Positions 17,038-21,171 of a stretch of DNA of 64,000 nt are shown here, in pieces (position 1 is the first letter of the stretch; each line of letters starts with the position of its first letter). Origin of the DNA: Prosthecobacter sp. (GTDB taxonomy: Bacteria > Verrucomicrobiota > Verrucomicrobiia > Verrucomicrobiales > Verrucomicrobiaceae); assembly GCF_034366625.1 (NCBI RefSeq), contig NZ_JAXMIH010000008.1, positions 186,001 to 250,000 on the forward strand. The letters are read 5' to 3'. Under the pieces are notes generated by a model that saw only the letters and a program-made list of their open reading frames with translations, did no database searches and had not been told where the DNA came from. Position numbers and translations under genes: made by a program.

Positions 17038-20000
17038 ATGAAATCCTTCTGCGCCCTCTTCCTCACCGCAGCACCTCTCCTTGCCGCCGATTCGATCTTC
17101 GACGGCAAGACGCTCGACCACTGGAGCGGCAAGGCAGAGCACTGGCGTGTCGAAGACGGTACCATCACGGGCGAGATCCCCGCCGACAAGCCGCTCAAGG
17201 GCAACGAATGGATCTTCTGGGATGGCGAGGTGCATGACTTCGATCTGAGCGTCGAGTTTCGGATCAGCGGCGGCCCCAGTGCGAACAGCGGCATTCAGTA
17301 TCGCTGCCAACGCGACGAAAACGGCCACGCCAGCGGCTACCAGGCCGATCTCGATCAGGGCGCGGTATGGCTTGGGCGCATCTACGACGAGCATGGACGC
17401 GCGTTGCTCGTGGAGCGTGGATCAAGGGTGAGCATCGCGCCGGATGGCCGACGCTGGGCGGATGTGTTCGCGGAGCCGAAGAGCCTCGCGAGCGTCATCA
17501 AGGCGGGCGATTGGAACACCTACCGCATCACCGCCACCGCATCGCACGTCGAGGTGCGTGTGAATGACGTGCTCATGAGCGTGCTCGACGATCATGAGGC
17601 CAAAGCAGCCGAATGGAGCGGCAAGATCGCCTTCCAGCTCCACAGCGGCCCCGGACCGGCCAAGGTGCAATTTCGGAACATCCAGCTCACGCATCTCGGC
17701 AAGACGGCGATGCCGAGACGTGATGCGGGCACTCCTGCCCGCAATGATTTGAATCAGCAGACAGGAGTGTCTGCATCACCACCACCTGCGGAGCTGAATC
17801 TTGGCTTTGAAAAAGGCACGCTCGAAGGCTGGAAGGCCGAGGGCGATGCCTGGACCGGCCAACCCGTTGAAGGCGACACAGTCGCGACCCGCAAGCGCGG
17901 CAACTCTCAGCATGCGGGCAAATTCTGGCTCGGCGGCTACGAGCGCATCGGCGACAAAGGCACCGGCACGCTCACGTCATCGAGTTTTGTCGCCACGCAT
18001 CCGTGGGCGAGTTTTCTCTTCGGCGGGGGGCGAGAAATGAAAACGGAGATCGTCGAAGAAGCAGGCGGCAAGGTCATCTTCAAAGCCAGCGGTGAGGATC
18101 GCGAGGACATGAAGCGGGTGGCGGTGAATCTCGAAAGCGTGGTCGAGAAGAAGATTTTCATCCGCATCACCGATTCGAGCCAGACCGGCTGGGGCCATGT
18201 GAACTTCGACGACTTCGTCTTCCACGATCAAAAGCCGTCTTTTGCCGCCAGCACTCTCACCATCAGCGGCGACCGCACCAAGCGCGGCGATGAAAGCCCC
18301 GTGCTCTGGCATCTGCTGCCAAATTCGTCGAAGGATCTGCCGGAGATGCGCGTGCAGGATGGCTTTCAAATCGAATTGATCGCCAAGGAGCCGGACGTGA
18401 AGCAGCCGATCGCGTTTTGTTTCGATGAACGCGGCCGCATGTGGGTGGCGGAGGCATTCAGCTATCCGAATCGCCAGCCCGAGGGCCAAGGGAAGGATCG
18501 TATCACGATTCTCGAAGACGCAGATGGTGACGGTTCCTTTGAGACGAAGAAAATCTTCATCGAAGGCCTGAATCTCGTCAGCGGCATCGAGGTCGGCTTT
18601 GGCGGCGTGTGGGTGGGCGCGGCACCGTATTTGATGTTCATTCCGAAGGACGCGAACGACAAAGCCAGCGAACCGAAGATCCTCCTCGATGGCTTCGGCT
18701 ATCAAGACACGCACGAAACGCTGAACAGCTTCATCTGGGGCCCGGACGGCTGGCTGTATGGCAATCAAGGCGTCTTCAACACCGCCGCCATCGGCAAACC
18801 GGGCTGTGATGCGAAGGATCGGGTCACGCTGCGCGCGGGGGTGTGGCGCTATCATCCGGTGCGGCATGAGTTTGAAGTCTTCTGCCACGGCGGCAGCAAC
18901 CAGTGGGGGCTCGACTACAACAGCAAAGGCCATTTCTTCATGACACACTGCCGCAGCTTCTTCGGCAAAGGCGGCACCACGCACGCCATCCGCAACGGCC
19001 ACTTCTGGAATCAGGCGAACGCGAATTATCCGTCCTTCGTGTCCGCCACCGCGCCGGACTTCGCGCCCGAGCTGCAAAACTACCTGCCTGCCTCCGCGCG
19101 CTACGACAGCGGCGAGGGAGGCGCGGGCAAACCGGGCACCACCGCCGTGTATGGCGGCCACTCGCATGTCGGCACGATGATCTACAACGGCGACAACTGG
19201 CCCGCGATCTACCGCGACCATCTTTTCACGCACAACCTGCACGGTCATCAGCTCAATCATCAGCACATGGTCCGCACCGGCAGCGGCTACGAGACGTTGC
19301 ATGCTGGCTACGACCTCCTCAACAGCTCCGCGCCCGACTACATCCCCGTCGATCTCCAAACCGGCCCCGACGGCGCCGTCTATGTCATCGACTGGACCGA
19401 CACCCAGCACTGCCACAACCCCGACGACGAAAAATGGGACCGCACGAATGGCCGCATCTACCGCATCTCGTGGAAGGAGACGTACAAGCCGGTGAAGGTG
19501 GATTTGGGTAGGATGACTGATGCTGAATTAGTTTATCTGGCGGTGTCTGGAACTGAGTGGGAGTCGAGGATGTCTCGTCGGCTTCTCCAAGAACGCCCGA
19601 ACTGGCCTCTCGGAACCTACGGCAAACTTGTTGGGCCATTAGCCTTGAGGACGGCTGATCGTAAACAGGCTTTGCGAATCATGTGGACTGCCATCAATGC
19701 GGGCGATCAGATAGACTTCAGCGGGTTCTTCGAGAGCCTTTTATCAGACGAAGATGACATCGTCCGCTCATGGGCCATCCAGCTCGCCACGGAGGAAGCG
19801 GGGAAACCCAAACTCAGCGCCGCAACGTTGCTCAAACTCGCCAAGACCGATCCCTCAGCCACCGTGCGCCTCGCGCTGGCGTCAGCCTTGCCGAAGTTGG
19901 ATGAGGAGACAGCTTTGGCTGTTGGCAGCGCGCTCGCAATGCGCGCTGAGGACAAAGACGACCGCTTCCTGCCGAAGATGATCTGGTTTGGACTTGCGCG

Positions 20001-21171
20001 GGTGATTGGGGACGATTGGGCGCGAGGCTTGGCGCTCGCGGAGAAGACGCCGATGCCCTCGCTGGCTGATTCGATCCGCTGGTTTGCCGGAAAGAGCGCT
20101 GAAGGCCGCGAGGCGCTGGTGAAGACGCTGAAAACGACGCGGGGTCTGCAAATCCTGGCCTTCGCTTTGAAGGATGAGGCTGCTGTGAAAATGCCGAAAG
20201 CGTGGCCGCAGGTTCAGTCGGACTTGTCGGACAAGTCGGATCTCGTCCGACAGGTTTCTGCGCTCTTTGGAGACAAAACGGAGCTCGCTGAAATGCGTGC
20301 CGTGCTAGGGGACACCGCAAAGCCGCTACCCCAACGCCGCAGCGCCTTCGATTTGCTCAAACGCGTCGGCGATGCCGAATCGACGCCAATCTTCGCGAAG
20401 CTGCTCGATGAAGCGGCATTCGCGTCGGCGGTCATTCCGCTGCTTTCACGCTCGAATGATCCGGCCACCGCCTTGACACTCCTTGACCGTTTTGACCAAC
20501 TTGACCCTGCTGACCGCAGCGCCGCTCTGGGCGCTTTGACGAGCCGCGCGGAGCTTGCCAGACCAATGCTCGAAGCCGTCAAAGCCGGCACGTTCGACAA
20601 GAAACACCTCAGCAGTCTGCAAATCCGCCAGATGCGCAATTTGAACCATGGGGAGATCAACACGCTGCTCGACGCGACCTGGGGCAAAGTGAACGATTCC
20701 AGCGAGGCAGCGAAGGCGAGTATCGCCAAATTCAAGAAGGCGTATGAATCCGCGCCGCTTTGGGCCTTCAACGCGAAATCGGGCGAGCAGACCTTCCAGC
20801 AGCTTTGCGCCGTGTGCCATGCGATGGGAGGTGTGGGCGGCAAGCTCGGCCCCGATCTCGCCGGATCGTGGCGCAATGGTCTCGATTACTTCCTGGAGAA
20901 CATCATCGATCCAAACGCGGTCGTCGGAGACAACTTCCAGCTCCACGTTTTGACCAAAAAGGACGGCAGCGTCGTCTCCGGCGTCATCGAGCAGGAAACC
21001 GACACGGCGATCACGGCACGGACGGTGACGGAGTCCGTGATCATTTCAAAAGCTGACCTCAAAGATCGTCAGAAGCTGCCTGTCTCGATCATGCCACCCG
21101 GTTTGCTCGAAGCTCTGCCGGAGAGGAAGGCGCTGGAGTTGCTGAAGTTTCTTCTCAGCAAGCGGGAATAG
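17038..21171 (+). CDS. Exported DUF1080 / membrane-bound dehydrogenase propeller / HEAT / cytochrome c fusion
   Basis: 1377 residues. A signal peptide (CALFLTAAPLLAA) is followed by a DUF1080 (3-keto-disaccharide hydrolase-like) domain at ~17-220 (FDGKTLDHWSG, SANSGIQYRCQ). A linker of about 30 residues is encoded by a palindromic repeat. A second jelly roll spans ~255-405. A Planctomycete/Verrucomicrobia dehydrogenase-type propeller spans ~430-835 (MRVQDGFQIELIAKEP, SFIWGPDGWLYGNQGVFN). Next come HEAT-like helices to ~1230 and a C-terminal heme domain with C1257-A-V-C-H1261 and GPDLAGSW. The plan suggests oxidation of a sugar and cleavage of the product in one periplasmic protein. That is inference: the dehydrogenase domain has no proven reaction. 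Two 9-nt microrepeats also lie in the HEAT region. Confidence 0.88.
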   Translation: MKSFCALFLTAAPLLAADSIFDGKTLDHWSGKAEHWRVEDGTITGEIPADKPLKGNEWIFWDGEVHDFDLSVEFRISGGPSANSGIQYRCQRDENGHASGYQADLDQGAVWLGRIYDEHGRALLVERGSRVSIAPDGRRWADVFAEPKSLASVIKAGDWNTYRITATASHVEVRVNDVLMSVLDDHEAKAAEWSGKIAFQLHSGPGPAKVQFRNIQLTHLGKTAMPRRDAGTPARNDLNQQTGVSASPPPAELNLGFEKGTLEGWKAEGDAWTGQPVEGDTVATRKRGNSQHAGKFWLGGYERIGDKGTGTLTSSSFVATHPWASFLFGGGREMKTEIVEEAGGKVIFKASGEDREDMKRVAVNLESVVEKKIFIRITDSSQTGWGHVNFDDFVFHDQKPSFAASTLTISGDRTKRGDESPVLWHLLPNSSKDLPEMRVQDGFQIELIAKEPDVKQPIAFCFDERGRMWVAEAFSYPNRQPEGQGKDRITILEDADGDGSFETKKIFIEGLNLVSGIEVGFGGVWVGAAPYLMFIPKDANDKASEPKILLDGFGYQDTHETLNSFIWGPDGWLYGNQGVFNTAAIGKPGCDAKDRVTLRAGVWRYHPVRHEFEVFCHGGSNQWGLDYNSKGHFFMTHCRSFFGKGGTTHAIRNGHFWNQANANYPSFVSATAPDFAPELQNYLPASARYDSGEGGAGKPGTTAVYGGHSHVGTMIYNGDNWPAIYRDHLFTHNLHGHQLNHQHMVRTGSGYETLHAGYDLLNSSAPDYIPVDLQTGPDGAVYVIDWTDTQHCHNPDDEKWDRTNGRIYRISWKETYKPVKVDLGRMTDAELVYLAVSGTEWESRMSRRLLQERPNWPLGTYGKLVGPLALRTADRKQALRIMWTAINAGDQIDFSGFFESLLSDEDDIVRSWAIQLATEEAGKPKLSAATLLKLAKTDPSATVRLALASALPKLDEETALAVGSALAMRAEDKDDRFLPKMIWFGLARVIGDDWARGLALAEKTPMPSLADSIRWFAGKSAEGREALVKTLKTTRGLQILAFALKDEAAVKMPKAWPQVQSDLSDKSDLVRQVSALFGDKTELAEMRAVLGDTAKPLPQRRSAFDLLKRVGDAESTPIFAKLLDEAAFASAVIPLLSRSNDPATALTLLDRFDQLDPADRSAALGALTSRAELARPMLEAVKAGTFDKKHLSSLQIRQMRNLNHGEINTLLDATWGKVNDSSEAAKASIAKFKKAYESAPLWAFNAKSGEQTFQQLCAVCHAMGGVGGKLGPDLAGSWRNGLDYFLENIIDPNAVVGDNFQLHVLTKKDGSVVSGVIEQETDTAITARTVTESVIISKADLKDRQKLPVSIMPPGLLEALPERKALELLKFLLSKRE
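17720..17779. repeat. REP-like double palindrome inside a coding sequence
   Basis: Two perfect 7-bp hairpins, GCGGGCA-CTCC-TGCCCGC (17725-17742) and GCAGACA-GGAG-TGTCTGC (17757-17774), are also near-complementary to each other. They form a 23-bp outer stem bounded by GTGATGC and GCATCAC with four mismatches. The element is 60 bp, a multiple of 3, and is translated as part of a linker between the DUF1080 and second jelly-roll domains. Confidence 0.85.
20217..20252 (+). repeat. 9-nt coding microrepeat
   Basis: GTCGGA recurs at 9-nt spacing (20218, 20227, 20236), followed by its complement GTCCGAC. An 8-bp palindrome GACTTGTC/GACAAGTC is embedded. It encodes SDLSDKSDL in the HEAT-like region of the large fusion protein. 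Confidence 0.75.
20473..20516 (+). repeat. Second 9-nt coding microrepeat
   Basis: TTGAC recurs at 20473, 20483, 20492 and 20501, then CTGAC near 20509, almost exactly every 9 nt. It encodes LLDRFDQLDPADRS in the HEAT-like region of the same protein. Confidence 0.7.

Follow-up and report, generated by a model that had tools for sequence, protein, structure and literature searches.

A REPIN translated in frame within a protein linker of Prosthecobacter, a probable passenger from a mobile REP family

How does a palindromic DNA element come to be translated between two domains of a fused enzyme, and does the enzyme depend on it? This question is raised by positions 17720-17779 of the window, the 64-kb stretch of Prosthecobacter DNA that we analysed. 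An earlier note had described there a palindromic REP-like element with two 7-bp hairpins, its arms pairing with four mismatches in 23, and had taken it for a mobile element domesticated as a linker. Sequence and folding bear out the description. The 60 bases read GTGAT GCGGGCACTCCTGCCCGC AATGATTTGAATCA GCAGACAGGAGTGTCTGC ATCAC, two 18-nt hairpins separated by a 14-nt spacer, with a GTGAT tag before the first and ATCAC after the second. Both hairpins have perfect 7-bp stems (GCGGGCA/TGCCCGC and GCAGACA/TGTCTGC) and 4-nt loops, and the left 23-nt arm differs from the reverse complement of the right one (GTGATGCGGGCACTCCTGCCCGC, GTGATGCAGACACTCCTGTCTGC) at four positions, two per stem half. The element is a REPIN, i.e. 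two inverted REPs. It forms codons 228-247 (RDAGTPARNDLNQQTGVSAS) of the ORF at 17038-21171, whose frame is open throughout, and its in-frame placement between the PF06439 domain and the next domain is as previously claimed. The features are as follows.

17038..21171, forward strand: host gene, 1377 aa, with a signal peptide-like start, 3-keto-disaccharide hydrolase domain, beta-rich domain, DUF7133, HEAT repeats and cytochrome c.
17089..17688, forward strand: PF06439 3keto-disac_hyd domain, residues 18-217 (E 4e-38).
17707..17818, forward strand: inter-domain linker, residues 224-260, predicted low-confidence coil (structure model, pLDDT <50 for 224-260).
17720..17779, forward strand: REPIN made of two inverted REPs, bounded by GTGAT and ATCAC and translated in the host frame; genomes G015, G043 and G044 have the full REPIN at this site.
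17720..17724, forward strand: left tag GTGAT; up to 56 hits with the same tag in congeners, and a RAYT in G033 flanked by it.
17725..17742, forward strand: left REP hairpin GCGGGCA-CTCC-TGCCCGC, read A-G-T-P-A-R.
17743..17756, forward strand: 14-nt spacer AATGATTTGAATCA.
17757..17774, reverse strand: right REP hairpin GCAGACA-GGAG-TGTCTGC, read Q-T-G-V-S-A.
17775..17779, reverse strand: right tag ATCAC (inverted GTGAT).
17830..18225, forward strand: predicted second beta-rich domain, residues 265-396, without a Pfam name (model; conserved in orthologues).
18331..19476, forward strand: DUF7133 domain, residues 432-813 (E 2e-69).

The 1377-aa ORF contains a cytochrome c motif. In the model of the host protein, which is modest (mean pLDDT 60) and was used solely to call the linker a low-confidence coil, the approximately 20 aa encoded by the element, residues 228-247, are predicted to lie within a coil between two beta domains.

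The element belongs to a dispersed family. Its core, GCRGRCACTCYTGYCYGC, has 21 exact matches in the 6.6-Mb genome that contains the window (G000), with none for a reversed control, and is present in 70 of 143 relatives. The G000 core copies mostly carry a GGGAGC tag and a few a GTACGAC tag; the GTGAT-tagged type is represented in G000 by the window copy only. The expectation of further copies in the genome was therefore borne out for the core and not for the GTGAT-tagged type itself. Pattern searches of DNA, through which all copies beyond the window were sampled, located the GTGAT type in 47 of the 143 genomes searched; at ≤1 mismatch, hits numbered 47 in G015 and 56 in G040. Inverted REP pairs number five in G000 and 11-19 in several relatives. 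The sister families are tagged GGGAGC, GTAC or GTAAC, and the window family has a conserved GTGAT, not the classical GTAG.

Transposase genes accompany these repeats. In G000, a Y1_Tnp/RAYT ORF (L067, C8:454433-454714) has GGAGC-type REPINs on both sides that share the hairpin core; it carries PNHxH and YIxxNPxxAGL signatures and matches the solved TnpA-REP structure 4er8 (E 2e-7). GTGAT REPINs stand on both sides of RAYTs in G033 (L145) and G040 (L336), whose proteins are 64% identical, and the GGAGC-type and GTGAT-type RAYTs form separate groups. In G000 (assembly 96.7% complete), neither a RAYT flanked by GTGAT REPINs nor a close relative of the GTGAT RAYT was found, the best match being 40% identical to the G033 protein. 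Because, in addition, the GTGAT type is absent elsewhere in G000, the window REPIN is an orphan of its type there. Other Y1_Tnp ORFs of G000 (L068 at C11:134093-134371 ± 1.5 kb, L062, L063 and L064) have other hairpin pairs nearby, e.g. CGCACAGTCCCCTGTGCG at L068, which suggests additional REP families with their own RAYTs in this genome.

To what extent the host protein depends on the element can be judged from its orthologues. We compared the linker in 25 of them, the named relatives being Prosthecobacter, Brevifollis and Verrucomicrobiaceae MAGs, and both the presence and the type of REP were found to differ. The flanking protein is 72-85% identical across most of the aligned orthologues; the linker alone is variable. 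A full GTGAT REPIN occupies it in four genomes (G000, G015, G043, G044), a single REP in four (G011, G012, G022, G029), a decayed REP in two or three (G002, G020, perhaps G047), a GTAAC-ended REPIN in one (G057) and a heptad repeat in three (G010, G014, G035), and the remainder have neither REP, REPIN nor heptad repeat. The linker measures 30-33 residues with a REPIN, 26-29 with one REP, 26-31 without and 37 with the GTAAC type. These lengths argue against a simple 60-bp addition to an empty linker, which we rejected. In the gene tree, REPIN, single-REP and REP-less forms fall in different parts, with at least ten changes of state; support is weak (5/22 branches starred), and a single insertion date was rejected since the tree cannot resolve one. 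No clean empty site that would show the exact insertion borders and target site was found, the REP-less orthologues having linkers of the same length and unrelated sequence. On these alignments, the REPIN is optional and mobile at genus scale, with linker residues replaced rather than 20 added. The mobile-element reading of the earlier note is supported by this variation among orthologues together with the dispersed core copies and the REPIN-flanked RAYT genes.

Two side observations concern the same orthologues. The heptad repeat (TTGAAAC-type units; L087, L088, L089) is itself dispersed, in 26 of 56 relatives, and occupies the same protein linker. A MAG record titled Akkermansia muciniphila (L169) encodes a host-gene orthologue 84% identical to that of the window; its label is probably wrong.

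Because the orthologous linkers vary in content at approximately constant length, we regard the element as a tolerated passenger in a permissive loop and not a required linker. Our preferred reading, which we hold with considerable confidence, is that a GTGAT REPIN or REP entered this loop, moved by a RAYT, and has been carried since without a needed role in the linker. REPINs are non-autonomous and consist of a pair of inverted REP hairpins; a RAYT (a Y1 HUH transposase, TnpA-REP) would recognise the single-stranded hairpin of each REP together with its tag, then copy or move that REP. A GTGAT-tagged REPIN or REP would thus have entered the inter-domain loop in some lineages of the Prosthecobacter group, in a frame giving a small polar peptide (SDAGTPARN...AGVPAS), so that the fused enzyme would have survived. 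It presumably replaced other linker residues, is decaying in certain species and missing from others, and the encoded peptide may well have no function. In G000 the window REPIN is probably immobile now, as the genome has no close relative of the GTGAT RAYT.

The manner of entry could have been different: an old REP may have been overwritten in place by the genome's active REP family, through gene conversion or RAYT-mediated exchange, with the linker a hot spot and no insertion into a naive site. Several loops hold different REP types in different species. In addition to the host linker (GTGAT and GTAAC), a loop of a HEAT protein contains a GGGAGC REP in G000 and G032 and a GTGAT REPIN in G015, and is empty in G002, G004 and G011; the linker of an aldolase-SDR fusion contains GGAGC and GTGAT types, the GTGAT REP being that of G015; and a loop of a BatA-like protein contains GGGAGC and GTAC types, the GTAC-type REP being that of G032. 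Moreover, REP-less orthologues have segments of about the same length, and the aldolase-SDR site measures 24 nt with the REP and exactly 24 nt without it. An ABC ATPase site is less clear, nearly all orthologues having a segment of similar length with varying REP likeness. However, few loops are permissive, and the same one could have been hit independently more than once; insertion borders are obscured where linkers evolve fast, and the weakly supported gene tree gives no order of events. On balance we consider overwriting possible though doubtful. In the HEAT-protein loop of G012, we also observed a collapsed GTGAT-like element (L294) consisting of left tag, one hairpin and right tag, which looks like a REPIN with one arm deleted between the hairpins.

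What the earlier note missed is that such elements recur in many genes of the lineage and that one reading frame is strongly favoured among them. For this survey 120 extra REP regions were taken from relatives, and both flanks, with the element itself excluded, were scored for codon usage by a caller that recovers 126/160 known positions. Among the elements retrieved by DNA pattern alone, 43/88 REPINs and 20/103 single REPs lie in frame inside genes. Since 49% of random nearby positions were called coding, REPINs are not depleted from genes by the flank codon measure, and the mostly extragenic location typical of REPs does not hold here. The first REP is read A-(G/D)-T-P-(A/V)-R (SDAGTPAR/GSADTPVR) in 62/73 elements and 33/40 independent gene families, in genomes chosen as REP-rich and with orthologous sites merged by flank similarity only. 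For REPINs, this frame was used in 20 of 23 gene families (p 2e-4 against 1/2, because a TGA from the GTGAT tag closes the third frame and leaves two open), and for single REPs in 13 of 17 (p 9e-7 against 1/5). The second REP is read AGKSARIT or RAGVPAS at 27/28 sites. Of the REPINs whose first arm is in frame 0, none (0/44) has the spacer length class leading into the cysteine-bearing GQECP frame, compared with 19/46 of the other REPINs. A length divisible by three, pointed out previously, is true of the window copy and is not a rule, as in-frame REPINs elsewhere have spacers of several lengths. The simplest reading of these sequence counts is that insertions coding for hydrophobic or cysteine-rich peptides would be lost and short polar linkers survive, i.e. 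that purifying selection at the protein level underlies the bias; a target-site preference tied to codon phase could also produce it.

This bias to a polar, linker-like peptide also counts in favour of a domesticated REPIN, with its hairpin or peptide doing a job such as a translation pause between domains, mRNA stabilisation or provision of a needed flexible spacer. The fold is indeed very stable: the RNA is computed to fold at -37.5 kcal/mol, whereas shuffled sequences gave -17.4 ± 2.9 (z -6.9) and none of 200 came as low, and the hairpins are intact or nearly so in four orthologues. On the other hand, close orthologues in which the element is decaying (G002, G020) or absent have linkers of nearly equal length (26-31 residues without it, 26-33 with it), and the same peptide is read in unrelated genes. 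Arm differences that preserve the stems had been taken as selection on structure. Across 142 arms of 71 REPINs, partly from related genomes and hence incompletely independent, covariation at both variable base pairs of the stem is nearly complete (p 2e-16 and 1e-25). Selection on structure is thus supported for the REP family, and a need for structure in the window linker does not follow from it: stem-preserving differences are a property of the whole dispersed family and not evidence on this linker, for which we rejected specific selection on RNA structure. The covariation fits recognition of a folded single strand by the HUH transposase, or hairpin-templated repair. A preference for unlike arms within a REPIN was rejected as weak overall (p 0.17 and 0.04), only the loop difference in the GTGAT-rich genomes standing out (p 7e-4). 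Domestication as a linker, as the earlier note proposed, is not borne out by the linkers of the orthologues, and we consider it unlikely. A chance inverted repeat in coding DNA of a GC-rich genome, with which the count in the window alone would agree (3 cores at ≤3 mismatches found versus 1.5 expected, no clear excess), is rejected as extremely improbable given the genome-wide exact matches, the RAYT linkage and the orthologues.

Parts of this picture have precedents. REPIN/RAYT (REPtron) systems are known from Pseudomonas and other bacteria, where the elements described are mostly extragenic (Bertels & Rainey 2011, PMC3116915; PMC8266576). Like them, the present families pair two REPs in inverted order, form short and perfect hairpins, occur in dispersed copies and have a Y1 HUH transposase gene with the same REPs on either side. 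Unlike those systems, they have GTGAT, GGGAGC, GTAC or GTAAC in place of GTAG, which is the tag 'most often' found (PMC8266576), and about half of the sampled REPINs are intragenic and translated. Degenerate tags, such as GTGG in Opitutus, are mentioned in the tag descriptions of PMC3733652, and the GTGAT tag makes this family a REP variant and does not exclude it from REPs. Intragenic GTAG and CGTC repeats, accepted as REPs, are described in the same report as most abundant in Opitutus terrae, also a verrucomicrobium (Di Nocera et al. 2013, PMC3733652); according to its account of them, they are often dimers coding for 20-30 aa, in DNA repair genes and others, for which flexible linkers or loops were suggested, and that account states no preferred frame. 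Our elements likewise lie within ORFs, but belong to other tag and hairpin families, and orthologues and RAYT clades were compared here. By analogy only, they also resemble the RPE/WPE of Rickettsia and Wolbachia, described as palindromic repeats that are translated in frame within conserved genes and fall on the protein surface (Ogata et al. 2000, cited in PMC2229807; PMC3767692), where different RPE groups share one orthologous site in Rickettsia (PMC3767692). RPEs are 100-150 bp by the description cited (PMC2229807; PMC3767692), whereas the present elements are about 60 bp, RAYT-linked and from another phylum. REPIN/RAYT systems, intragenic REPs and protein-coding palindromes with different groups per site are thus already described; new relative to the literature cited, as far as these papers show, are the non-GTAG-tagged families of the Prosthecobacter group, their high translated share and the strong frame bias.

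We tentatively propose that the RAYT/REPIN families of this group are largely translated, that protein selection may keep one harmless polar frame, and that the resident family may keep replacing older REPs of the same loops, inter-domain linkers being rewritten repeatedly by mobile DNA at constant length. Such a route, by which mobile DNA supplies and replaces protein linkers, would seem to be frequent in the phylum Verrucomicrobia. The many natural replicates, in which the same loop contains different REP families, a decayed one or none, allow two questions to be addressed: whether a translated palindrome is a neutral passenger or serves as a useful spacer, and whether hot spots or overwriting in place account for unlike palindromes at a single orthologous site, which are also reported in Rickettsia.

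The elements are in-frame palindromic repeats in conserved protein genes. Pfam recognises 19 of the 20 REP-bearing ORFs tested, including Mfd, RecD2, a Clp ATPase, a Cas4-Cas1 fusion, N6-methylases, a sulfatase and a TIR-NACHT protein, and in G000 further in-frame REPs lie in the ABC ATPase, the BatA-like protein, a squalene-cyclase-like protein, a DUF7133/HEAT paralogue and the aldolase-SDR fusion. Two protein kinases of G000 also contain REPs. One ORF (L046, C23:248735) ends shortly after a REP pair with its kinase domain incomplete, and is likely a case of a REPIN that broke its host gene. The other (L036, C4:4981) has GTAC-type REPs in a linker, together with repeated PARNASRSDAGGSA stretches that resemble a REP-derived peptide.
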